From positions 1 through 64,000 of the forward strand of contig NZ_JAUFPN010000107.1 of the NCBI RefSeq assembly GCF_030409335.1: a stretch of DNA of 64,000 nucleotides. Direction: 5' to 3'. Under the pieces are notes generated by a model. That model was not told where the DNA came from, did not search any database, and was given only the letters and a program-made list of their open reading frames with translations. This document shows, piece by piece, positions 48,172 through 60,326 of this stretch. The first letter of the stretch is position 1. The number at the start of each line of letters is the position of its first letter. Made by a program: the position numbers and the translations under genes. The DNA comes from Paeniroseomonas aquatica. Its GTDB lineage: Bacteria > Pseudomonadota > Alphaproteobacteria > Acetobacterales > Acetobacteraceae.

Positions 48172-49124
48172 TCCGCCGCGGCATCCTGGCCGGCCTGGCC
48201 GCCGCCTCCCTCGGCCGCCCGGCCCTCGCCGAGACCTGGCCGGCCCGGCCGGTGCGGATCGTGGTGCCCTTCCCGCCGGGTGGCACCGTGGACATCCTCG
48301 GCCGGCTGACCGCGGCCTGGCTGACCGAGGCGACCGGACAGAGTTTCATCGTCGAGAACCGCTCCGGCGCCGGCGGCAACATCGGCGCCGCCGCGGTCGC
48401 CCGGGCCATGCCCGATGGCTACACCCTGCTGATGGGCTCGCCCGGGACCCAGGCGATCAACGCGCATCTCTATCCGAACCCAGGCTACGACGGGATCGCG
48501 GATTTCGCGCCGATCTCGCTGGTGGCCGAGGTGCCGAACCTGCTGGCGGTGCATCCCTCGCTGGGCATCCGCACGGTGCCTGAGCTGATCGCCGCCGCGA
48601 AGGCGTCGCGGCTGGCCTATGGCGAGACCAGCATCGGCGGCAGCACCCATCTCTCGGCCGAGCTGTTCCGGCTGCAGGCGGGGATCGAGGGCGAGCACGT
48701 TACCTACCGCGGCAGCGCGCCGATGCTGGGCGACCTGCTGCCGGGGCGGATCGCCTGGGGCGTCGACAACCTGCCCTCCATCCTGCCGCATGTCCGCAGC
48801 GGGGCGCTGGTGGCGGTGGGCGTCACCAGCCGGGCGCGCTGGTCCGGGGCGCCGGAGATCCCGGCCATCGCCGAGAGCCTGCCGGGCTACGAGGTGACCG
48901 CCTGGTTCGGCCTGCTGGCGCCGAAGGGCACGCCCGGCGAGGTCGTCGCCACCGCCAACGCCGCCCTGGCGAAGATGCTGGCGACGCCGGCCGCGGTGCG
49001 GCGGCTGGCCGACCTCGGCGCGACGCCCATTCCCGGCACGCCGGAGGCCTACCGCGACCATATCGCCGCCGAGTTCCGGAAATGGGGCGAGGTGGTGAAG
49101 CGGGCCGGCATCCGGCTGGAGTAG
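48168..49124 (+). CDS. Bug/TctC family tripartite tricarboxylate receptor
   Basis: A 318-residue periplasmic receptor with a short signal sequence (GILAGLAAASLGRPALAE). Motifs are VVPFPPGGTVDILGRL, IVENRSGAGGNIGAAAV and MPDGYTLLMG. It is translationally coupled to the upstream thioesterase and is the third member of this family in the window. The operon RraA-thioesterase-receptor suggests uptake and breakdown of one carboxylic substrate. A GC-rich hairpin follows at 49146-49173. Confidence 0.9.
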   Translation: MIRRGILAGLAAASLGRPALAETWPARPVRIVVPFPPGGTVDILGRLTAAWLTEATGQSFIVENRSGAGGNIGAAAVARAMPDGYTLLMGSPGTQAINAHLYPNPGYDGIADFAPISLVAEVPNLLAVHPSLGIRTVPELIAAAKASRLAYGETSIGGSTHLSAELFRLQAGIEGEHVTYRGSAPMLGDLLPGRIAWGVDNLPSILPHVRSGALVAVGVTSRARWSGAPEIPAIAESLPGYEVTAWFGLLAPKGTPGEVVATANAALAKMLATPAAVRRLADLGATPIPGTPEAYRDHIAAEFRKWGEVVKRAGIRLE

Positions 49125-49145
49125 CGGCCGGGCAGGCCGCGGGCA

Positions 49146-49173
49146 CCCGCCCGGCAGCGATGCCGGTGGCGGG
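49146..49173 (+). terminator. GC-rich hairpin behind the Bug receptor gene
   Basis: CCGGCA (49151-49156) and TGCCGG (49161-49166) form a perfect stem over a GCGA loop. Outer pairing of CCCGC (49146-49150) with GCGGG (49169-49173) lengthens it with a small bulge. It begins 22 bp after the stop of the receptor gene and has no T-run. It may end the upstream transcript, or be a binding site for a regulator of the sigma-54 promoter 11 bp further on. Confidence 0.4.
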
Positions 49174-49183
49174 CCGGTCCTGC

Positions 49184-49199
49184 TGGCACGGGCATTGCA
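49184..49199 (+). promoter_or_regulatory. sigma-54 promoter of the cyanase gene
   Basis: TGGCACG (49184-49190), 4 bases, then TTGCA (49195-49199) matches the -24/-12 sigma-54 consensus TGGCACG-N4-TTGCA exactly. Transcription would begin near 49210, leaving a leader of about 110 bases before cynS. Sigma-54 promoters need an activator such as NtrC, so cyanase is probably induced under nitrogen limitation. The same consensus occurs before the ureide operon at 59344-59358. Confidence 0.75.
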
Positions 49200-49321
49200 G
49201 CGCCGCCGGGCCGCGGGGCAATCGGCCCCTCGACCGTCAGGATGCGGCGGACCGGCACCGCCCGGCGCGCCGGCCGGCATGCGAGGGGCCGTCCGACATC
49301 CGCCCCGCAGGAGAGGCCCGC

Positions 49322-49768
49322 ATGAACGACGCCAAGACCGAGCTCGGCCGCAAGATCCTGCGCATCAAGAAGGCCAAGGGGCTCAAATGGGGCGATATCG
49401 CCGCCCGCATCACCATGTCCCCGGTCTGGACCTGCGCCCTCTGCATGGGCCAGATGAGCGCCGAGCCGCAGCATGCCCGTGGCATCGCCGAGATGCTGGA
49501 GCTCGACGAGGAGGAGGAGGCGACGCTCTGCGAGATCCCCTATCGCGGCGCCCAGCCGATGCCACCGACCGACCCGCTGATCTACCGCTTCTACGAGCTG
49601 GTGCTGGTCTATGGCACGAGCTGGAAGGAGATGATCCACGAGGAATTCGGCGACGGCATCATGTCCGCCATCGACTACGACATGCTGCTGGAACGGCTGC
49701 CGGACCAGAAGGGCGACCGGGTGAAGATCACCATGACCGGCAAATTCCTCTCCTATAAGCGCTACTGA
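49322..49768 (+). CDS. cynS: cyanate hydratase (cyanase)
   Basis: A 148-residue enzyme that converts cyanate and bicarbonate to ammonia and CO2. An N-terminal helical domain is followed by the catalytic domain DPLIYRFYELVLVYGTSWKE and IHEEFGDGIMSAIDYD. The catalytic residues are Arg89, Glu92 and Ser115, equivalent to Arg96, Glu99 and Ser122 of the E. coli enzyme at a constant offset of 7. ATG 49322 gives the normal length; the frame remains open upstream but without family sequence. No carbonic anhydrase (cynT) or transporter (cynX) is adjacent. A sigma-54 promoter lies upstream. Confidence 0.96.
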   Translation: MNDAKTELGRKILRIKKAKGLKWGDIAARITMSPVWTCALCMGQMSAEPQHARGIAEMLELDEEEEATLCEIPYRGAQPMPPTDPLIYRFYELVLVYGTSWKEMIHEEFGDGIMSAIDYDMLLERLPDQKGDRVKITMTGKFLSYKRY

Positions 49769-49829
49769 GGCGCTTAATTTGCGGCTTCGGTGCTGGCGGT
49801 GCGGCCCGGACATCGCCAGATTGCCGCGG

Positions 49830-50753
49830 ATGACCACGCTCCTCGCCGATATCGGCGGCACCAATGCCCGCTTCGCCCTGGCCGAGGGCGATGCCCATAC
49901 GCCGCCGGTCAGTGTCCGGCTCGATGCCTTCCCCGGCATCGCGGCGGCGATCGCCGCCTACCTGGGCGACGCCGCCCCGCCCCGCGCCGCGGTCCTGGCC
50001 GTGGCCGGGCCGGTGGAGGCCAATGCCGTCCGCCTGACCAACCGCGGCTGGCTGGTGGATGGCGCCGAGCTGGCCGCCACCCTCGGCATTTCCCGGGTCC
50101 GGGTGGTGAATGATTTCGCCGCCCTCTCCCGGTCGCTGCCGCAGCTGCGTGGCGCCGACCTGCATCCCCTCGGCGGCTCCCGGGCGGAGCCGGGCGCGCC
50201 GCTGGCGGTGCTCGGCCCGGGCACCGGCCTCGGGGTCGGCGCCTTCCTGCCGCCCGACCGGGTGCTGGTGACCGAGGGCGGCCATGCCAGCGTCGCGGCC
50301 CATACCGCGCGGGAAGCGGCGGTGGTCGAATTCCTGCGCGGGCGGCATGGCCATGTCTCGGCCGAGCGGCTGATCTCCGGCCAGGGGATCGAGAATCTCC
50401 ATGCCGGGCTCGCCGCCGTCGACGGCCAGGCCGTGGCGCCCCTGCCGGCGGCCGAGGTCACCGCCCGGGCGCTGGCCGGCCGCGACCCGCGCTGCGCCGA
50501 GGCACTGGACATGTTCTGCGCCCTGCTCGGCAGCGTCGCCGGCGACCTGGCGCTGCTCTACGGCGCCCGCGGCGGGGTCTTCGTCGGCGGCGGCATCTGT
50601 CCCCGCTTCCCGGAGTTCCTCGCCGCCTCCGCCTTCCGGGCGCGGTTCGAGGCCAAGGGCCGCCTCAGCGGCTGGCTCGCGCCGGTGCCGGCCTGGCTCA
50701 TCCTGCGGCCGGATGCGGCGATGCTGGGGCTGGCGGCGCTGGCCCGGGACTGA
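49830..50753 (+). CDS. glk: glucokinase
   Basis: A 307-residue ROK-independent Glk-type kinase making glucose 6-phosphate. The ATP site is LLADIGGTNARFAL, the catalytic aspartate is in VVNDFAALS, LGPGTGLGVGAF and the substrate-binding TEGGHASVA follow, and GGVFVGGGICPRF is the adenosine-side motif. ATG 49830 puts the family signature at the N-terminus. It follows cynS by 61 bp on the same strand but has no evident functional link to it. Confidence 0.92.
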   Translation: MTTLLADIGGTNARFALAEGDAHTPPVSVRLDAFPGIAAAIAAYLGDAAPPRAAVLAVAGPVEANAVRLTNRGWLVDGAELAATLGISRVRVVNDFAALSRSLPQLRGADLHPLGGSRAEPGAPLAVLGPGTGLGVGAFLPPDRVLVTEGGHASVAAHTAREAAVVEFLRGRHGHVSAERLISGQGIENLHAGLAAVDGQAVAPLPAAEVTARALAGRDPRCAEALDMFCALLGSVAGDLALLYGARGGVFVGGGICPRFPEFLAASAFRARFEAKGRLSGWLAPVPAWLILRPDAAMLGLAALARD

Positions 50754-50807
50754 CGGCCGCCGCCGCCGCTCTTGCCTCAGGTCCGCGCATGGCCTATCTG
50801 CCCGGCC

Positions 50808-51939
50808 ATGCGCGCAGATGCCGAAACCCTGAATGAGCAGATCACCGCTTCGGTGTCCCTGCTGAGGAGGCATCTTTGACTGGGATGTCGCCCTACGCCG
50901 TCTCGATGAGCTGAACGCCAAGGCCGAGGACCCCGGCCTCTGGAACAACGCCGACCTGGCGAACAAACTCATGCGGGAACGCTCCCGCCTCGCCGACCAG
51001 ACCGAGGGCGTGCTGCGGATGGAGCAATCCGTGCGCGATGCCCTGGAATTGGTCGAGCTGGCCGAGGCCGAGGGCGATGCCGATACCGCCGATGCGGCGG
51101 TCGCCGACCTCAAGACCCTGGCGGTCGAGGCCAAGCGGCGCGAGATCGAGAGCCTGCTCTCCGGCGAGGCCGACCAGAACGATGCCTATGTCGAGGTCAA
51201 CGCCGGCGTCGGCGGCACCGAGGCGCAGGACTGGGCCGAGATGCTGCTGCGCATGTACCAGCGCTGGGCCGAGCAGCACGGCTACAAGGTGGCGCTGACC
51301 GAGCAGTCCGACGGCGAGGAGGCCGGCATCAAGTCGGCCACCCTGCAGGTCACGGGCCCGGCCGCCTATGGCTGGATGAAGACCGAGACCGGCGTGCACC
51401 GGCTGGTCCGGATCAGCCCCTTCGGCGGCAACGACAAGCGGCAGACCAGCTTCGCCAGCGTCTATGTCTACCCGGTGGTGGACGACAAGATCGAGATCGA
51501 GATCAACCCGGCCGACCTGCGGACCGATACCTTCCGCGCCTCCGGCGCCGGCGGCCAGCACGTGAACAAGACCGAATCGGGGGTGCGCTTCACCCATATC
51601 CCGACCGGGATCGTCGCGGCCTCCACCCAGGACCGCAGCCAGCACAAGAACCGCGCGATTGCGATGAACATGCTGAAGGCCCGGCTCTATGAGTTGGAGC
51701 TGAGCAAGCGCGAGGCGGTGAGTGCGGGTATCGAGGCCGGCAAGACCGACATCGGCTGGGGCCACCAGATCCGCAACTACGTGCTGCAGCCCTACCAGCT
51801 GGTGAAGGACCTGCGGACCGGCCTCGAGAAGGGCAATCCGGCGGCCGTGCTGGACGGCGACCTGGACGAGTTCATGGCCGCGGCGCTGGCGGCCCGGGTC
51901 GGCGCGACGCGGTCCGAGGCATCGGCCTCGGCGCGCTGA
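50808..51939 (+). CDS. prfB: peptide chain release factor 2, with programmed +1 frameshift
   Basis: RF2 reads UGA and UAA stop codons. The gene is in two frames. Codons from ATG 50808 run 23 residues to CTT (50874-50876) and an in-frame TGA (50877-50879). After a +1 shift, reading resumes at GAC 50878 and gives DWDVALRRLDELNAKAEDP and onward, a total of about 376 residues. The SPF codon-recognition motif (RISPFGG) and the catalytic GGQ loop (SGAGGQHVNKTES) are present. This is the conserved autoregulatory RF2 frameshift, not a mutation. Confidence 0.96.
50865..50880 (+). promoter_or_regulatory. prfB programmed frameshift site
   Basis: AGGAGG (50865-50870) acts as an internal Shine-Dalgarno-like stimulator three bases before the slippery CTT, followed by TGA and C (CTT-TGA-C). 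This reproduces the classical RF2 cassette. When RF2 is scarce, slow decoding of the TGA lets the ribosome slip forward one base and make more RF2. Confidence 0.95.
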
Positions 51940-52177
51940 CGCCGCCGCCCTGCCAGTGGTTTGGCCGGGCGGGTCGAAAAAGGCGCCGAATCAACGGGCT
52001 GGACCGCTTGCCGTGAGCCTGTGACGAATGGCAGCCGATCCAGCTATTGGCGCGGCCAAGCGCAAGCGGCGACTGATGAAACCGCTCCAGGTACTTAACT
52101 CGTTGCGAATCTTAAAATAGTATCTGATGTTCCGCGATGCGAATTGTAATTTCATTGTCTACTTTGTTACATGCTAT

Positions 52178-52205
52178 TTGATTCGTGTAGAAAATACCTT
52201 ATATA
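52178..52205 (+). promoter_or_regulatory. possible sigma-70-type promoter of the TupA-like gene
   Basis: TTGATT (52178-52183), a 16-base spacer and TATATA (52200-52205) stand in an AT-rich 297-bp gap after prfB. The ATG of the TupA-like gene is 31 bases downstream of the -10 box. The whole gap (51940-52236) is strikingly AT-rich compared with its surroundings, and no gene is seen in it. Confidence 0.45.
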
Positions 52206-52236
52206 AGACAGATGATTAACTTCCGGCTGAGCTGAG

Positions 52237-53211
52237 ATGCCAACGGCAAGTCACCTGACACAGCGGCGCATCGCGTCGTCCAGTCTCCGGACGCAGCTCG
52301 GTTCTGCCATCCGGCCCTTCTTCTACAAATTGCCGAATCAGATCGTTTCGCCGCTCCGCACCGTGAAGAAGTATTTCTTCACCTTCGGCTCGCTGCCGAA
52401 CGTGCTTGCGCCGCGGACCTTCAATGAGAAGGTCAATGCGCGGAAGTTCTTTGACCACCGCCGCATCTTCCAGACCTGGGTGGACAAGCTGGCGGTCCGC
52501 GACTGGGTGGCCGGGGTCAAGCCGGGCTACGACCAGCTGCTGCCGGTCCTGCACCATGTCACCTCCGATCCCGCTGACATCCCCTTCGACCAGCTGCCCG
52601 ACCGCTTCGTCATCAAGGCGTCGCATGGCAGCGGCTGGCTGCGGATCGTGAAGGACAAGGCCACCATTGACCGGAAGGCGATCATCGCCGAATGCCGGAA
52701 GTGGCTGGCCCTGAACTACTACGACGTCAATCTCGAAGGCGCCTACAAGAACATCCCGCCCCGCATTTTGATCGAGGAGTTCCTCGACAACGGCTCCGGC
52801 GAGGCGCCCGAGGACTACAAGCTCTACGTCTTCCACGGTCGGGTCGAGATCATCCAGGTGGATGTCGCCCGCTTCGGCCAGCACCGGCGGAAGATCTACG
52901 ACCGGAACTGGCAGGAACAGCAGGTCGAGCTCTCGGTCACGACCTATGCCGGCACCCTGCCGCCGCCGCCGCAGCTGGCACGGCTGATCGAGGTGGCGGA
53001 AACCCTCGCCGGCGACATCGACTTCGTGCGGGCGGACCTCTACCTCGTCGGCGACCGGATCTACTTCGGCGAGATGACCCCATCCTCCGGCAACGGCTTC
53101 AACCGCTTCACGCCGGCCTCTTTCGATGCGGTCATGGGCGCCTTTTGGAAGCTCGAATCCCCGCCGCGCCTGCTGCTGAATTCGCTGCGGCGGCCGCGGG
53201 ACAAGGCCTGA
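52237..53211 (+). CDS. TupA-like ATP-grasp protein
   Basis: A 324-residue protein resembling the TupA-like ATP-grasp family, found in polysaccharide and teichuronopeptide-type clusters. Family features are RTFNEKVNARKFFDHR near the start, FVIKASHGSGW as the ATP-binding loop, LIEEFLDNGSGEAPEDYKLYVFHGR, and FVRADLYLVGDRIYFGEMTPSSGNGF with the metal-binding acidic residues. It probably ligates or modifies a surface glycan component. It stands alone between prfB and a convergent NHL-repeat gene. Confidence 0.82.
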   Translation: MPTASHLTQRRIASSSLRTQLGSAIRPFFYKLPNQIVSPLRTVKKYFFTFGSLPNVLAPRTFNEKVNARKFFDHRRIFQTWVDKLAVRDWVAGVKPGYDQLLPVLHHVTSDPADIPFDQLPDRFVIKASHGSGWLRIVKDKATIDRKAIIAECRKWLALNYYDVNLEGAYKNIPPRILIEEFLDNGSGEAPEDYKLYVFHGRVEIIQVDVARFGQHRRKIYDRNWQEQQVELSVTTYAGTLPPPPQLARLIEVAETLAGDIDFVRADLYLVGDRIYFGEMTPSSGNGFNRFTPASFDAVMGAFWKLESPPRLLLNSLRRPRDKA

Positions 53212-53214
53212 GGG

Positions 53215-54069
53215 CTAGACCGGGACCAGCCGGGTGAGCCGGTTGGGGTTCTGCTCGCTCTGGTAGATCACCCCGCTCGCCGGGTCCCGCCACATGCCGT
53301 GCGCCCCGTTCAGCACCGGCCGGCAGCGGCCGATCAGCCGACCCTTGGCATCGAAGTGGCTGAGCCGCGGCACCTGATCGGTGACGTAGAAGCTGCCATC
53401 CGGCCCGCCGTGGACGTCCATCGGCTTATGGACGTCGCGGATGTCCTGCAGGTGGGTGCCTTCGGGGGTGAAGACCTGGACCCGGCTGTTGTCGCGGTCG
53501 GCCACCAGCACCCGCCCGTCCTCCAGCACCCAGACCGAATGCGGGGTGATGAACTCGCCCGCCCGGTCCCCCGGCCGGCCCCAGGCGCCGAGGTAGGTGC
53601 CATCGGCCGCGAAGCGATGCACCCTGGCATTGGCATAGCCGTCGGCCACGACCATCGTCCCATCCGGGGCGAAGGCGATGTCGCAGGGCGCGTTGAAGGG
53701 CTGCCCCGGCCCGTGCCGGGTGCCGAGGCCGCCGATCCGCGCGCCGGCGGCCGAGAAAATGATGATCTCATGCGCATCGCGGTCGACGACGAAGACCCGG
53801 CCATCGGGATGGACGGTCGCCATGTGCCCGTCCATGACCACCCCGCCGCCCCAGGCCGCCAGGCGTTCGCCGGCCGGGGACAGCACGACGATCGCCGGCG
53901 CCTCCGGGTCGGTATAGGGGTCCACCCGGAACTGCACATAGACCCGGCCGGCGGCATCGCAGGCGACGTCGCTGATGCGGCCGGGACCATCGACCGGCAG
54001 GTCGCCCCAGGGCCGCTCGATGCGGTAGCGCTGCGGCCCGAGGGCGACCCTGTAGCTTTCCCGCGTCAT
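53215..54069 (-). CDS. NHL-repeat beta-propeller protein, peptidyl-hydroxyglycine-lyase-like
   Basis: A 284-residue six-bladed beta-propeller of the NHL type, with repeating blades such as ATVHPDGRVFVVDRDAHEI, DIAFAPDGTMVVADGYANARV and HSVWVLEDGRVLVADRDNSRV. The blade sequence recalls the lyase half (PAL) of peptide-amidating enzymes. It has no signal peptide. ATG 54069 overlaps the stop of the PuuE-like gene (ATGA) and it is the last gene of the ureide operon. PAL releases glyoxylate from an N-acyl-alpha-hydroxyglycine, a reaction chemically analogous to ureidoglycolate cleavage, so it may act on a ureide. This role is an inference. Confidence 0.8.
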   Translation of the reverse strand: MTRESYRVALGPQRYRIERPWGDLPVDGPGRISDVACDAAGRVYVQFRVDPYTDPEAPAIVVLSPAGERLAAWGGGVVMDGHMATVHPDGRVFVVDRDAHEIIIFSAAGARIGGLGTRHGPGQPFNAPCDIAFAPDGTMVVADGYANARVHRFAADGTYLGAWGRPGDRAGEFITPHSVWVLEDGRVLVADRDNSRVQVFTPEGTHLQDIRDVHKPMDVHGGPDGSFYVTDQVPRLSHFDAKGRLIGRCRPVLNGAHGMWRDPASGVIYQSEQNPNRLTRLVPV

Positions 54070-54992
54070 TCGTTGAGGCCCTTGCCGGGATAGGGGTGCG
54101 TCGCCACCCAGTGCCGGGCGATATCGACCCGGCGGGTGATCCAGACATCCTGCTGCTGCAGCATGTGGTCGAGCACCCGCTGCAGCCCGACCGCCCGCGC
54201 GGGATGGCCGATGAGGCGCTGGTGCAGCCCGACCGACATCATCTTCGGCCGCCCCGCCCTTCCCTCGGCGAGAAGCATGTCGAAGGCATCGCAGATGTAG
54301 CTGAACCACTGGTCGCTGGTGCCCATCCAGCCCGCGTATTTCCCATCGTTGTTGGTGATGGAATAGGGCACGACCAGCTGCGGCTTGCCGTCGACCGTCA
54401 GCCAGAAGGGCAGCTCCTCGCCGTAGTAGTCGCTGTCGTAGAGGAAGCCGCCGTGTTCCATCACCAGCCGGCGGGTGTTCACGCTGGGTCCGTAGCGGCA
54501 GTACCAGCCCTCCGGCTTGTGGCCGATGGTCTTCTCCAGGCTGGCGACGGCGCGGGCGATGTGGTCGCGCTCCTCCGCCTCGGACAGCTCGAAATGCTTC
54601 ACCCAGCGCCAGCCGTGGGAGCAGACGTCGTAGCCGGCGGCGCGGATGGCGGCGGCGGCCTCGGGGTTGCGCTCCAGCGCCATGGCGCAGCCGAAGATGG
54701 TCAGCGGCAGGCCGCGTTCGGCGAACAGCCGGGTCAGTCGCCAGAAGCCGACGCGGCTGCCGTATTCGAACATGCCCTCGGCGGCGAGGTCGCGGCCGGA
54801 CTTGAGCTGGTTCAGCCCATGCGATTCGGTCAGCCCGTTCTCGGTATAGCCGTCGCCCAGCTCGATCGAGGGCTCCGAGCCCTCCTCGTAGTTGATGACG
54901 AAATTGACCGCGATCTTGGCCCCGTTCGGCCATTGCGGGTCGGGCGGATTGGCGCCGTAGCCGATGAAGTCGCGTTTCACCTCATAGGACAT
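54066..54992 (-). CDS. puuE: PuuE-type allantoinase, polysaccharide-deacetylase fold
   Basis: A 308-residue NodB/polysaccharide-deacetylase-fold protein of the PuuE group, which hydrolyses allantoin to allantoate. The opening RDFIGYGANPPDPQWPNGAKIAVNF, with INYEEGSEPS, SRVGFWRLTRLF, SHGWRWVKH and GWYCRYGPSVNTRRL, follows this family. It sits between the ureidoglycolate lyase gene (1-bp overlap with its end) and an NHL-repeat gene. Allantoate amidohydrolase or allantoicase, the next step, is not in the window. A related deacetylase on another ureide cannot be excluded. Confidence 0.85.
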   Translation of the reverse strand: MSYEVKRDFIGYGANPPDPQWPNGAKIAVNFVINYEEGSEPSIELGDGYTENGLTESHGLNQLKSGRDLAAEGMFEYGSRVGFWRLTRLFAERGLPLTIFGCAMALERNPEAAAAIRAAGYDVCSHGWRWVKHFELSEAEERDHIARAVASLEKTIGHKPEGWYCRYGPSVNTRRLVMEHGGFLYDSDYYGEELPFWLTVDGKPQLVVPYSITNNDGKYAGWMGTSDQWFSYICDAFDMLLAEGRAGRPKMMSVGLHQRLIGHPARAVGLQRVLDHMLQQQDVWITRRVDIARHWVATHPYPGKGLNE

Positions 54993-55465
54993 CAGGGCAG
55001 CTCCACGCTAAACTCGGGCACCTCGACGAATTCCTCGTCGGTCTTGCTGCCGTCCCGCCACATGACGATGACGAAGCGGGCCGGGCCGTCGAGGATGGTG
55101 AAGGGGTGGTGCCAGACATTGGCGCCGAAGGTGACGCCCTGCATCGGCCCGGCGAGGAAGGCGCGGGCGCGGGCCATGTCCGGCCCGCCGTCCTTGTCAT
55201 GCGGGGCGACGATGACCAGCCAGCGCCCGGCTTCCTGCGGGATGAAGGACTGGGAGCTGAACTCGTGCCGTTCCATGGTGGTGGAGCGCAGCGGCATCTC
55301 GGCCACGGCATGCTTCACGGTCAGCGAGATGCTCGGCCGCGCATTGGGCCGCAGGTTCGCCAGCGCATCCTCGAAATAGGTCCGCCCCGGGATGGCGGGG
55401 CATTCGATCACCTCGCCATAGGCCAGGAAGGCGGCGGAGGTGAGCGGTTCGGCCTTGAGAAACAT
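54992..55465 (-). CDS. allA: ureidoglycolate lyase
   Basis: A 157-residue AllA-family enzyme cleaving ureidoglycolate to glyoxylate and urea. It begins LKAEPLTSAAFLAYGEVIE and carries ERHEFSSQSFIPQEAGRWLVIVA, GVTFGANVWHHPFTIL and FVIVMWRDGS, all typical, with a matching length. ATG 55465 follows the upstream permease stop by 2 bp. The urea formed could feed the urease encoded by the divergent operon. Confidence 0.9.
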   Translation of the reverse strand: MFLKAEPLTSAAFLAYGEVIECPAIPGRTYFEDALANLRPNARPSISLTVKHAVAEMPLRSTTMERHEFSSQSFIPQEAGRWLVIVAPHDKDGGPDMARARAFLAGPMQGVTFGANVWHHPFTILDGPARFVIVMWRDGSKTDEEFVEVPEFSVELP

Positions 55466-55467
55466 GT

Positions 55468-56310
55468 CTATCCCCGCATGCGGCGCGTCAGGCCGGTGAA
55501 CCGTTCCATGACCAGCATCAGGACGAAGACCGTCAGGATGAGCAGGCCGGAAACGGCGGCAACCCGGACGTCGAGCGTGCTCTCCATCATGCCCCACATC
55601 CGGATCGGCAGCATGTCCGTCCGCGCCGAGGAGAGGAAGAGGGAGACCGGCACATTGTCGACCGAGGCCATGAAGGCGAGGAAGGCCCCGGCGGCGATCC
55701 CCGGCGCGATCAGCGGCAGCACCACCCGGCGGAAGGTCATCACCGGCCCGGCGCCGAGGCTGCGCGAGGCATCCAGCAGGGAGGGATCGAGCTGCGAGAG
55801 CGAGGCGCCCACCGTCCGCAGCACGAAGGGCGCCACGACGATGAGGTGGCCGGCCACCAGCATCTCCAGCGAGGGCCGGAAGCCCAGCAGCGAGAAGTAC
55901 ATCAGCGCCGCCAGGCCGAAGGCGAGGCCGGGCAGCACCAGCGGCGCCATGAAGAAGGCATCCGCCAGCCGCCCCGCGCGGCCCGCCGCCCGCGCCATGG
56001 CGACGGCGGCCGCGGTGCCCAGCACCGTCGCCAGCCCGGCCGCCCAGGCGGCAACGGTCAGGGTATTGCCCACCGCGCGATGGATCTGCCGCGACCGCAC
56101 CTCGTCCAGCAGCAGCTCGTACCAGCGCAGCGAGAAGCCGGTGGGCGGGAAGCGGATGGAGCGGCTGTCGGTGAAGGAGGTCGCCAGCACCACCAGGATC
56201 GGCCCGACCAGGATCAGCAGCGCCAGCGCCGCCAGGAACCCGATGATCCCGACATAGGCGATCTCGCCCATGCTGCGGCGCCGCGCCCCCGCCGTGCGAA
56301 GTCTAGCCAT
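55468..56310 (-). CDS. ABC transporter permease (PotC-like)
   Basis: A 280-residue inner-membrane permease with about six membrane helices and the ATPase-contact loop LLDASRSLGAGPVMTFRRVVLPLIAPG. It resembles the second permease of spermidine/putrescine-type importers. It overlaps the first permease gene by 8 bp and is followed by allA after 2 bp, so the importer and the ureide enzymes form one operon. The probable ligand is a ureide (allantoin, allantoate or ureidoglycolate), inferred from the operon. Confidence 0.9.
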   Translation of the reverse strand: MARLRTAGARRRSMGEIAYVGIIGFLAALALLILVGPILVVLATSFTDSRSIRFPPTGFSLRWYELLLDEVRSRQIHRAVGNTLTVAAWAAGLATVLGTAAAVAMARAAGRAGRLADAFFMAPLVLPGLAFGLAALMYFSLLGFRPSLEMLVAGHLIVVAPFVLRTVGASLSQLDPSLLDASRSLGAGPVMTFRRVVLPLIAPGIAAGAFLAFMASVDNVPVSLFLSSARTDMLPIRMWGMMESTLDVRVAAVSGLLILTVFVLMLVMERFTGLTRRMRG

Positions 56311-57148
56311 GGATGCGTCCCCCCGCGATGCGCCCGGCCGTGGCGATGACGGCGATGACCGCCGAGACCGAGACCAGCAGGGCGATCGCCGCCGTCGCCG
56401 CGAAGGGCCAGTTCGCCACCACCATGGCCTGCTGCCAGACCATCGCCGGCAGGTAGACCAGCCGCTCGCCGCCTATGACGGACTGGCTGATGAAGGCGGT
56501 CGTCGATGAGGCGAAGACCAGCAGGCAGCCGGCGGCGATGCCGGGCGCGGCCAGCGGCAGGATCACCCGGAACAGCGTCCGCCAGGGCGAGGCGCCGAGC
56601 GAGGCGCTGGCATCCATCAGGTTCGGGTCGATCCGCGCCATGACCGAGAGCAGCGGCAGCAGCAGCAGCGGCATCTCGATCTGGGTCAGCGAGATCACCA
56701 GCCCGAGCTCGGTCTGCAGCAGCCGCAGCGGGTCGGCGGCCAGGCCCAGCCCCATGACCATTTGGTTGACCACGCCCTCCCGCCCCAGGATCACGATCCA
56801 GGCGAAGGTGCGCACCACCACGCTGGTCAGCAGCGGCATCACCACCACGAACAGCAACACCCGCTGCCAGCCCGGCGAGGCCGCGCGATAGGCCAGCGCC
56901 AGCGGCAGGCCCAGCAGCAGCGTCGCCGCCACCGTCTTCAGCCCGAGCAGCACCGTGTTGCCGATGACCTTCCAGTGGAAGGCATCGCCGAGGAAGCGCT
57001 GCCACTGGCCGAGGCCCAGCACCGTCATGCGGTCGTCCGCGTAGAAGGATACCGCAAACAGCATCAGCAGCGGCGCCACGAAGAAGGCGGCGTAGGCCAG
57101 CCCCAGGGGCGCGACGAGTGGCGCGGCGAGCCCCCAGGTGGATCTCAT
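56303..57148 (-). CDS. ABC transporter permease (PotB-like)
   Basis: A 281-residue permease with six predicted membrane helices. It starts MRSTWGLAAPLVAPLGLAYA and has the EAA loop LMDASASLGASPWRTLFRVILPLAAPG. ATG 57148 overlaps the stop of the binding-protein gene (ATGA), and its end overlaps the second permease gene. It forms the heteromeric channel of the ureide-linked importer. Confidence 0.92.
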   Translation of the reverse strand: MRSTWGLAAPLVAPLGLAYAAFFVAPLLMLFAVSFYADDRMTVLGLGQWQRFLGDAFHWKVIGNTVLLGLKTVAATLLLGLPLALAYRAASPGWQRVLLFVVVMPLLTSVVVRTFAWIVILGREGVVNQMVMGLGLAADPLRLLQTELGLVISLTQIEMPLLLLPLLSVMARIDPNLMDASASLGASPWRTLFRVILPLAAPGIAAGCLLVFASSTTAFISQSVIGGERLVYLPAMVWQQAMVVANWPFAATAAIALLVSVSAVIAVIATAGRIAGGRIHG

Positions 57149-58173
57149 TTCGCCATCTCGCGGTTGAAGCGCTCGATCCAGCCGCCGCGCAGCGGGTTGA
57201 TCTTCGACCAGTCGTGGGTGTTGAAGCTGGACATCTCGGCCAGGCTCTTCATCGGCAGCCCGGCGCCGAGCGGCACCCCGGTATTCACCGGCACGAAGTT
57301 GTAGGGCGCCTTCTGCAGCGCGTCCTGCACCGCCCGGCCCACGACGATATCGATGTACTTGTAGGCATTCTCGATATTCTCGCAGCCCTTGGCGATATGC
57401 AGCGTGGTGAAGAAGGCGGTCGCGCCGGTCGAGGGCACCGCGAATTCGATATCGACGCCGCGGTCCTTCAGGGTCGTGACCGTCTGGGTATTGGTATAGA
57501 TGACGTCGCACTGGCCCTGCTGGAACAGCCCGGGCAACGCTGCCGGCGAGCTGACGGCGGCGATCTTCGGCAGCACCTTCTTCAGCTCGGCCAGCGCCGG
57601 CTCGATATTCGTCTCCGAGCCGCCGAAGACCTTGGCCAGCTCGATCAGGCTGACGGTGCCGAAGGTGGTGCCGAAGCCGGTGAGGCCGAGGCGGGAGACC
57701 CAGGGGTCCTTCAGCAGGTCGGCATAGCCGGTCGGCTTCGGCAGCTTCTTCGGGTTGTAGGCGACGCCGACGACCTGGGCGTTGCAGCCGACGCCCCAGT
57801 CATCGACCAGCATCCCCGGCAGCGCGGCGCGGCTGGTCAGCTTCGAGACCTCGAATTTCTCGAACATGCCACGGTCGATGGCGGTGATGCGGGGCCCCGG
57901 GTCGAGCACGAAGCAGTCGAAGGGCGGGGCGCCGCGGCTGGCGGCGAATTTGGCGATCTGGTCGACCGCGAAGAGCCCCTGCATCTCCAGCTCGATGTTG
58001 TGCTGGCGCTTCAGCGGCGGCGCCACCAGCTCGCGGAAGGCCTCCTCCCAGGCGCCGGGATAGATGGCGGTGGTGACGCTGCCGGCGCGCTGGGCGCGGG
58101 CGAGCGACGGCGCGAAGGCCGGCGCGGCCAGCCCGGCGAGCAGCGCGGCGCGGCGGGTGAGGGTGATGGACAT
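57145..58173 (-). CDS. extracellular solute-binding protein (PotD-like)
   Basis: A 342-residue periplasmic binding protein. The signal sequence has a twin arginine (LTRRAALLAGLAAPAFAPSLARA). The mature part begins VTTAIYPGAWEEAFRELV and includes YNPKKLPKPTGYADLLKDPW and LFQQGQCDVIYTNTQTV, as in polyamine/opine-type family 1 binding proteins. Two ATGs compete: 58173 has GAGGAGG 7 bases upstream, while 58179 overlaps the ATPase stop but has the ribosome site only 1 base away, so 58173 is preferred. It probably delivers a ureide. Confidence 0.9.
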   Translation of the reverse strand: MSITLTRRAALLAGLAAPAFAPSLARAQRAGSVTTAIYPGAWEEAFRELVAPPLKRQHNIELEMQGLFAVDQIAKFAASRGAPPFDCFVLDPGPRITAIDRGMFEKFEVSKLTSRAALPGMLVDDWGVGCNAQVVGVAYNPKKLPKPTGYADLLKDPWVSRLGLTGFGTTFGTVSLIELAKVFGGSETNIEPALAELKKVLPKIAAVSSPAALPGLFQQGQCDVIYTNTQTVTTLKDRGVDIEFAVPSTGATAFFTTLHIAKGCENIENAYKYIDIVVGRAVQDALQKAPYNFVPVNTGVPLGAGLPMKSLAEMSSFNTHDWSKINPLRGGWIERFNREMAK

Positions 58174-58175
58174 GG

Positions 58176-59315
58176 TCATTCCTCCTCGGTGTCGGGATGG
58201 GGAAACACGGCCGGGCGGGCGCCCGGAACCAGGCCGCACCAGGCCCGCGGGCCGCGGTCGGCGATGCCGCCCAGCCGCGGCTCGACCAGCCGCAGCGGCG
58301 CGCCGCCCTCGGTGGTCGCCTCGCGGATGGTCTGCCCGCCGATCGGCAGGGCCAGGCCGAGTGCGACCGGGAAGCGGTCGTCTGCCGCCTCGTCGTGCAG
58401 CATCAGCTGCTCGGGCCGCACCGCCAGCACCGCCGGCCCCGGCGGCAGCGGCGCGGCGCTGCCGAGCGGCGCCGCGAGATGGGCGCCATCCGGCAGGCGG
58501 ATGCGGGCCATGCCGGCCTCCGCCCCCAGCATCAGGCAGGGCAGCAGGTTGGTGCTGCCGATGAAGCCGGAGACGAAGCGGGTGCGCGGCTGGTCGTAGA
58601 CCTCGACCGGGGTGCCGAGCTGCTCGATCCGGCCGCCGCGCATCACCGCGATCCGGTCGGCGACGCTCATCGCCTCGTCCTGGTCGTGGGTCACCAGGAT
58701 GGCGGTCAGGCCGAGCTGGCGCTGCAGCCGCTTGATCTCGATCTGCATGTCGAGCCGGAGCGAGCGGTCGAGCGCGGCGAAGGGCTCGTCCAGCAGCAGG
58801 ATGCTCGGCTCGATCGCCAGCGCCCGGGCCAGCGCGACGCGCTGCTGCTGGCCGCCCGAGAGCTGCCGCGGGGCGCGGTCCCGCAGCGGGCCGAGCTGCA
58901 CCATCTCGAGCAGCTCGGCCACCCGCGCCGCGATGCGCGGCTTCGCCCAGCGCCGCGCCTGCAGCCCGTAGGCGACGTTGTCGGCGACGCTCATGTGCGG
59001 GAAGAGCGCGTAATTCTGGAAGACGATGCCGACCTGCCGGCGGTTCGGCGGCAGGTCGTCGATGCTGGCGCCGTCGATCAGCACCTGACCCTCGGCCTGC
59101 CGGGTGAAGCCGGCGACGGTGCGCAGCAGCGTGGTCTTGCCGCAGCCGGAGGGCCCGAGCAGCGCCAGGATCTCCCCGGGCTGCACCGCCAGGTCCACGG
59201 CATCCAGCGCGGTGAAGCCGCCGTAGCGCACGGTCAGCCCGAGCACGTCGAGCGTGTGGCCCTGGAGCGAAGGCGAAGGGGACGCCGCGGGGTCGGTTGC
59301 GGGAGCAGTGGGCAC
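58176..59315 (-). CDS. ABC transporter ATP-binding protein (PotA-like)
   Basis: A 379-residue ATPase driving the importer. Walker A is GPSGCGKTT, the signature is LSGGQQQRV, Walker B is ILLLDEPFAALD, the switch histidine is in LVTHDQDE, and a TOBE-type regulatory domain follows at the C-terminus (about residues 270-379). GTG 59315 is chosen because GGAGA lies about 6 bases upstream and a sigma-54 promoter at 59344-59358 would start transcription near 59332. The longer frame back to 59477 would begin upstream of that promoter. It is the first gene of the seven-gene ureide operon. Confidence 0.92.
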   Translation of the reverse strand: MPTAPATDPAASPSPSLQGHTLDVLGLTVRYGGFTALDAVDLAVQPGEILALLGPSGCGKTTLLRTVAGFTRQAEGQVLIDGASIDDLPPNRRQVGIVFQNYALFPHMSVADNVAYGLQARRWAKPRIAARVAELLEMVQLGPLRDRAPRQLSGGQQQRVALARALAIEPSILLLDEPFAALDRSLRLDMQIEIKRLQRQLGLTAILVTHDQDEAMSVADRIAVMRGGRIEQLGTPVEVYDQPRTRFVSGFIGSTNLLPCLMLGAEAGMARIRLPDGAHLAAPLGSAAPLPPGPAVLAVRPEQLMLHDEAADDRFPVALGLALPIGGQTIREATTEGGAPLRLVEPRLGGIADRGPRAWCGLVPGARPAVFPHPDTEEE

Positions 59316-59343
59316 GGGATTCTCCGGGAGCGGGGCGCAGGAC

Positions 59344-59358
59344 GCAACCTTCGTGCCA
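59344..59358 (-). promoter_or_regulatory. sigma-54 promoter of the ureide operon
   Basis: On the minus strand, TGGCACG (59358-59352), 4 bases and TTGC (59347-59344) match the sigma-54 -24/-12 consensus. The predicted start is near 59332, 17 bases before the GTG of the ATPase gene, which also fixes that start. Control by NtrC or a similar activator under nitrogen limitation is expected. The urease operon on the other strand starts 135 bp away and may share the activator. Confidence 0.75.
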
Positions 59359-59429
59359 GCTTCCCTCCACCGCCGATCCCCCGCCTCGATCCCCTGTCGT
59401 GTCCCGTGCTGTTTGGGTTCGCGCCATGC

Positions 59430-59446
59430 TGCCGAGATTTTCGGCA
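59430..59446. promoter_or_regulatory. inverted repeat in the ureide/urease divergent region
   Basis: TGCCGA (59430-59435) and TCGGCA (59441-59446) flank a 5-base spacer. The repeat lies about 87 bp upstream of the sigma-54 promoter, a usual distance for an activator site, and 47 bp before ureD. It does not match the NtrC consensus well, so another regulator (for example LysR-type) is possible. Confidence 0.4.
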
Positions 59447-59492
59447 TCTGTCCCGCCTTGCCACGGGCGGGGCGCATGTCATCCTGCGGCCG

Positions 59493-60326
<834 letters not shown>

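Follow-up and report, generated by a model that had tools for sequence, protein, structure and literature searches.

A probable, conserved sigma-54 promoter ahead of a nitrogen-scavenging importer operon in Paeniroseomonas aquatica

An element that precedes an importer operon in Paeniroseomonas aquatica is very probably a real sigma-54 promoter, conserved among relatives, that serves a nitrogen-scavenging operon. It lies in the window, the whole stretch of 64,000 nucleotides of contig NZ_JAUFPN010000107.1 that was analyzed, and sequence comparison gives us good confidence that an NtrC/sigma-54 promoter drives the genes for an ATPase, a solute-binding protein, two permeases, and AllA, PuuE, and NHL-repeat proteins under nitrogen limitation. 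Nitrogen limitation would place phosphorylated NtrC on a TGCC-N9-GGCA dyad ~90 nt upstream; the dyad-bound NtrC would contact sigma-54 RNA polymerase waiting at the box and open it through ATP hydrolysis, and the outcome would be a high-affinity importer made together with ureide-cleaving enzymes. This kind of gene switch is well known, and what is new is this instance and its family-specific operator. The arrangement would link purine-derived nitrogen salvage to the general nitrogen-starvation switch in Acetobacteraceae, and it supplies an operator and promoter pattern that predicts a regulon.

The -24/-12 element, a pattern match that is kept in related loci, is TGGCACG-AAGG-TTGC-G on the minus strand at 59343 to 59358, and within it the 15-mer TGGCACGAAGGTTGC occupies 59344 to 59358. 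The GG at -24, the GC at -12 (59345 to 59344), and the TGGCAC-N5-TTGC spacing are all present. From 59358 to 59343 the minus strand reads TGGCACGAAGGTTGCG, and the GTG at 59315 comes 27 nt on, with GGAG in the gap. By the standard spacing of sigma-54 promoters, transcription starts ~12 nt past the GC of the -12 box, which predicts a start at 59332 (+/- 2 nt, minus strand), 17 nt from the GTG. The preliminary description, made from the sequence alone, had placed TGGCACG-N4-TTGC on the minus strand at 59344 to 59358, with a predicted start ~17 nt ahead of the operon's first gene, and in this it was correct. A scan for sigma-70-like sites between 59250 and 59560 found none and says little, because shuffled sequences gave none either. 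An Rfam scan of 48900 to 60000 gave no match.

The first gene of the operon (58176 to 59315, minus strand, as are those that follow) has a GTG start and encodes a PotA-like ABC transporter ATPase. Packed tightly after it are genes for a PotD-like extracellular solute-binding protein (SBP; 57145 to 58179), PotB-like and PotC-like ABC permeases (56303 to 57148 and 55468 to 56310), an AllA-family protein (ureidoglycolate lyase; 54992 to 55465), a PuuE-like protein (54066 to 54992), and an NHL-repeat protein at the end of the coupled string (53215 to 54069), the transporter and NHL-repeat genes being assigned by family matches. The names AllA and PuuE apply at family level: PF04115 and PF01522 score over their cut-offs and the NCBIfam models below theirs, with TIGR03212 at 379 bits versus a cut-off of 424.6 for the PuuE-like protein. 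The divergent urease cluster begins with ureD (59493 to 60326, plus strand), which has a 177-nt intergenic region in common with the importer operon. Most of the named relatives of the SBP with solved structures bind polyamines; one binds agropine and one pyridoxal phosphate. Among the matches listed, the closest relative of the SBP, at 94%, belongs to a MAG named Belnapia. We infer a ureide substrate from the gene neighbors AllA and PuuE only; of the "ureide importer" proposed earlier, these neighbors are present as described, and the substrate is a prediction from gene context.

As far as sequence can tell, the site is set apart from chance by its conservation and not by clustering. The SBP was found in 11 of 120 family genomes, its own included, and in all 10 of the others the box, at no more than two mismatches, lies on the coding strand ahead of the ATPase gene; in two of these genomes the SBP is just 39% identical and the box is still present. 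A wider scan took the best 80 of 125 loci, from which three without an ATPase hit and three with the start off the contig were removed to leave 74 usable ones; these loci are not independent of one another, and the 120-genome search probably covered several of the same genomes. Within 300 nt ahead of the ATPase gene, on the coding strand, the box at no more than one mismatch is present in 67 of the 74 usable loci (best 80 of 125). On the opposite strand, these stretches reached one mismatch in a single locus and two in 20, the remainder being worse, and stretches inside the ATPase gene reached two or fewer in 0 of 74. By number of mismatches to TGGCAYR-N4-TTGCW, the best matches divide into 15 loci with none, 52 with one, 2 with two (L106 and L125, the match in L125 being misplaced and probably due to chance), 1 with three (L097), and 4 with four (all four Rokubacteria). 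A recognizable box was not found in the 300 nt upstream in the four Rokubacteria loci, L097, and L125.

In 69 aligned promoters the GG, CA, and GC are invariant, and the N4 and flanks hold 0.01 to 0.47 bits, with 0.69 at one position past the -12 box; this table of column bits is biased on its own because each box had been selected for being the best match, and it is the control stretches that carry weight. Gene content on the operon strand was also compared over the best 80 of 125 loci, several of them clipped by contig ends: an AllA-family gene is present in 59, a PuuE-like gene in 64, both in 55, and neither in 12, and a divergent ureD neighbor occurs in 8 of these best 80. The Rokubacteria loci (L099, L101, L103, and L104) have the same operon without a recognizable sigma-54 box, which suggests that there the operon is under different regulation.

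The second exact sigma-54 box of the window (49184 to 49199, plus strand) lies 138 nt ahead of cynS, a cyanase gene by family match (49322 to 49768, plus strand). A sigma-54 box ahead of cynS recurs in the family. The gene was found in 46 of 120 genomes, and in 30 loci inspected, with starts located by tblastn, the 341 nt ahead of cynS hold the box at no more than one mismatch in 10 cases; the two controls, the reverse strand and the stretch in or after the gene, have it in none of the 30. A dyad at no more than one mismatch accompanies the box in 1 of the 11 cynS loci that have the box at up to two mismatches. This is the locus of the same-genus genome G036, where the box TGGCACGGGCATTGC stands 45 nt ahead of cynS and a perfect dyad lies 59 nt farther upstream. 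In the window, by comparison, no dyad at two or fewer mismatches was found upstream of the cynS box. The dyad thus marks cynS as a regulon member in one species only, and the sequence argues just weakly for membership in this genome.

The preliminary description had read two matches in one 64-kb window, both directly before nitrogen genes, as unlikely by chance and as the sign of a shared regulon. The exact pattern indeed occurs twice in the window versus 0.02 times expected from shuffles. With a final W and up to two mismatches, 7 matches compare with 10.5 expected, and therefore only the strict form is informative. The clustering of the two sites is only suggestive, because the probability is 0.003 that at least two of nine random places fall in one preset 64-kb window and 0.076 that another exact copy falls within 64 kb, one being given. 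The wording "directly before nitrogen genes" holds for the importer box, and the cynS box is the weaker of the two. There is a considerable chance, although we lean the other way, that the importer box is real and that cynS stands outside a shared regulon here, its box displaced and its activator site lost. The 138-nt distance and the lack of a dyad, set beside the compact arrangement in G036, speak for such a loss; against it, the core of the window's cynS box, N4 included, is identical to that of G036, and boxes ahead of cynS far exceed their controls.

Upstream of the importer promoter we found a candidate NtrC site, A-TGCC-GAAAATCTC-GGCA-G, at 59429 to 59447 on the minus strand, with its start 89 nt ahead of the -24 box. 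This dyad, ATGCCGAAAATCTCGGCAG, has the same TGC-N11-GCA geometry as NtrC sites. Expectation maximization, used to search 37 upstream regions for palindromic motifs, returned GC-rich noise only and was rejected. In a directed scan of gaps 3 to 13, the 9-base gap was the most prominent for CTGCC, with 21 of 37 regions versus 9.8 expected at 8 of 10 letters and 6 versus 0.9 at 9 of 10. When dyads were counted without bias in 43 non-redundant upstream regions, the palindrome AATGTGCACATT gave the strongest ones, and second came TGCC-N9-GGCA and CTGC-N11-GCAG, each in 7 of 43 regions, where shuffles gave 0.3 and 0.6. In several relatives the dyad occurs twice, ~20 bp apart. A weight matrix trained on 12 sites that lie outside the importer set gave the window site a score that none of 500 shuffles matched, and it reached p < 0.05 in 13 of 37 non-redundant importer upstream regions, so that the dyad convinces in just a part of the importer loci. 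This test is not independent, because the training sites were picked by likeness to the dyad.

By itself the dyad occurs often in this GC-rich genome (1328 places at no more than one mismatch versus 866 for the reversed pattern), and it is associated with the box. At no more than one mismatch it lies 20 to 200 nt upstream of four of nine exact boxes (P = 2e-4), or of three of eight when the window's own is excluded (P = 0.002), and a perfect dyad occurs at two of the nine (P = 4e-5, given 38 exact dyads in the genome). We also scanned 299 family genomes for the composite TGCC-N9-GGCA-N40-70-TGGCAYR-N4-TTGC, which matched 70 times in 51 genomes versus no match for the reversed pattern; a dyad gap of 10 gave 12 matches in 12 genomes versus 2 reversed.

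Downstream genes were read at 30 of the 70 composite places, and at 18 of the 30 these are nitrogen import or metabolism genes by family likeness, most of the assignments scoring below curated cut-offs. They comprise the importer ATPase (L189, L192, and L205, all by reading), UrtA-type proteins (L182, over the cut-off, and L202, below it), peptide-type solute-binding proteins (L190, L191, and L203, by reading, and L206), NirB (L193 and, by reading, L194), a glutamine synthetase family protein (L183), cynS (L186, by reading), a PuuE-like protein (L188), a Dpp-type ATPase in the window's own genome (L185), a taurine/nitrate-type ATPase (L199), a branched-chain amino-acid type binding protein (L208), and a cytosine-deaminase-like protein (L209). 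Two places lie ahead of flagellar genes (FlgF-like in L195, by reading only, and FlgI in L201), others precede an ATP-grasp gene (L200) and an ABC ATPase gene with a TOBE_2 domain (L197), and no gene could be assigned behind 8 of the 30 (L180, L181, L184, L187, L196, L198, L204, and L207). Sigma-54 boxes stand straight ahead of flagellar rod and ring genes in L004 (FlgE/F/G family), L195, and L201, the latter two with the dyad.

The glnK loci offer a further comparison. A sigma-54-like box lies ahead of the PII gene in 9 of 10 amtB loci, and upstream of five of these nine boxes (L170, L171, L172, L174, and L178) a dyad at no more than two mismatches is found at 42 to 97 nt, three of the five being within one mismatch. 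The genome's own glnK (L173) has no dyad at two or fewer mismatches within 200 nt ahead of its box. Eight of the nine glnK boxes (L170 to L178) read TTGA or TTGG at -12, not TTGC, and TGGCACG is kept (CGGCACG in L170). On balance, we think it probable that Acetobacteraceae have a family-specific NtrC operator, CTGCC-N9-GGCAG, ~60 to 95 nt upstream of the -24 box and in several loci tandem 20 bp apart. Together with the box it would define a nitrogen-scavenging regulon readable from sequence, with ureide, urea, and peptide importers, NirB, PuuE-like and cytosine-deaminase-like enzymes, and, in one species, cyanase.

The genome encodes the factors that such a promoter would need. RpoN is present in one copy (PF04552, E 2.2e-69, over the cut-off), and the genome's own NtrC scores 693 bits versus a cut-off of 558.6 and has the sigma-54-contacting GAFTGA loop. 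NtrX (L166), on the same contig as NtrC, reads GLEAGTDALA and is unlikely to act on sigma-54 because the GAFTGA loop is missing. The activator at the importer promoter is most likely NtrC, since the E. coli NtrC site has the same TGC-N11-GCA geometry and nitrogen genes lie behind the dyad. The proposal that a sigma-54 promoter drives the operon accordingly gained support on several sides, from conservation in 67 of 74 loci, the rpoN gene, the GAFTGA-bearing NtrC, and the upstream NtrC-like dyad.

It is improbable, though worth weighing, that the box is real and its activator is not NtrC but one of the FlbD-like proteins L163, L164, and L165 or a substrate-specific regulator. These three additional proteins of the genome have a GAFTGA or GAFSGA loop, the dyad also occurs ahead of the flagellar genes of L195 and L201, and 14 importer loci have a different upstream palindrome, AATGTGCACATT. 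On the other hand, a search for a local activator by GAFTGA-type motifs other than GAFSGA found none in the best 80 of 125 importer loci with flanks of up to 7 kb, and the dyad with NtrC geometry lies ahead of urtA, nirB, a glutamine-synthetase-like gene, one cynS, and some glnK genes. The palindrome, possibly the site of a different regulator, lies 80 to 91 nt ahead of the importer box in 14 of the 69 aligned rows (L065, L069, L074, L078, L080, L082, L084, L086, L087, L088, L090, L091, L100, and L107), many of them labeled Reyranella, and in the rows read a second TGTGCAC motif follows ~20 nt past it.

Control by NtrC with sigma-54 would place the importer promoter beside those of glnK-amtB, urtA, nas/nir, and glnA, which have the same -24/-12 box, an upstream TGC-N11-GCA dyad, and nitrogen genes downstream. 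Comparative genomics, in the part of the article available, assigns urease and urea transporter genes (in Rhizobiales and Rhodobacterales) and nitrite reductase genes to NtrC regulons (PMC5343134). The E. coli NtrC site is given as TGCACCAnnnTGGTGCA in the excerpt of PMC8743547; the half-site is TGCC here versus TGCACC there, and the TGC-N11-GCA geometry is common to both. For Bradyrhizobium sp. DOA9, the accessible text reports the RpoN consensus YTGGCACGrNNNTTGCW and TGGCACGGACCTTGC at -40 of a YdcT-type ABC ATPase gene (PMC13207237), so that the window box resembles the consensus and likewise has an ABC ATPase gene behind it, in a different organism. In Burkholderia cenocepacia, mutation of ntrC impairs the use of allantoin and of urea, and two allantoicase genes are down in the mutant; this is NtrC-dependent allantoin use, but through other genes than here, and the available portion of PMC5491218 maps no promoter. 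Caulobacter NtrC binds ahead of glnBA and glnK, according to the section of PMC10274813 at hand. In the same section, the NtrC proteins of Caulobacter and Rhodobacter, alphaproteobacterial too, are without GAFTGA and act with sigma-70, which is why the GAFTGA of the genome's own NtrC matters. In the openly licensed PubMed Central literature we found no paper on this promoter and none on Acetobacteraceae that names NtrC and RpoN.

Genome-wide counts bear on how specific the box is. The 6.5-Mb genome has 9 exact matches, and the reversed pattern has 2. When up to one mismatch is allowed, with a final W, the count is 54 versus 42 for the reversed control, and that scan was dropped as evidence because it barely exceeds its control. 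Seven of the nine exact copies lie ahead of a gene start in the same direction, and the genes behind them encode a Dpp-type ABC ATPase, CynS, the importer, a flagellar FlgE/F/G-family protein, two peptide-type solute-binding proteins, and a PuuE-like protein. The PuuE name (L008) is by reading, and one of the solute-binding proteins (L005) matches NikA/DppA-type models below cut-offs. At L007, another of the nine, the 3-kb locus showed no gene start in the same direction. Many equally good matches inside unrelated coding regions had been named as evidence against the promoter; of the nine copies, one lies inside a coding region, in a gene that is hyuA-like by reading (L006). That the importer box is a chance match and that sigma-70 or read-through drives the operon is very improbable: the one-mismatch count and the P of 0.076 would allow it, but place and strand are kept in 67 of 74 operons versus 0 of 74 and 1 of 74 in the controls.

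Two further arrangements were seen among the importer loci. L131 has a second importer-like operon, divergent and located upstream, as well as an exact minus-strand sigma-54 box 307 nt before the anchor of the first copy. In L049 and L051, by reading, no more than a few nucleotides separate the predicted start from the first ATG in the ATPase frame, which suggests leaderless or very short-leader transcripts.
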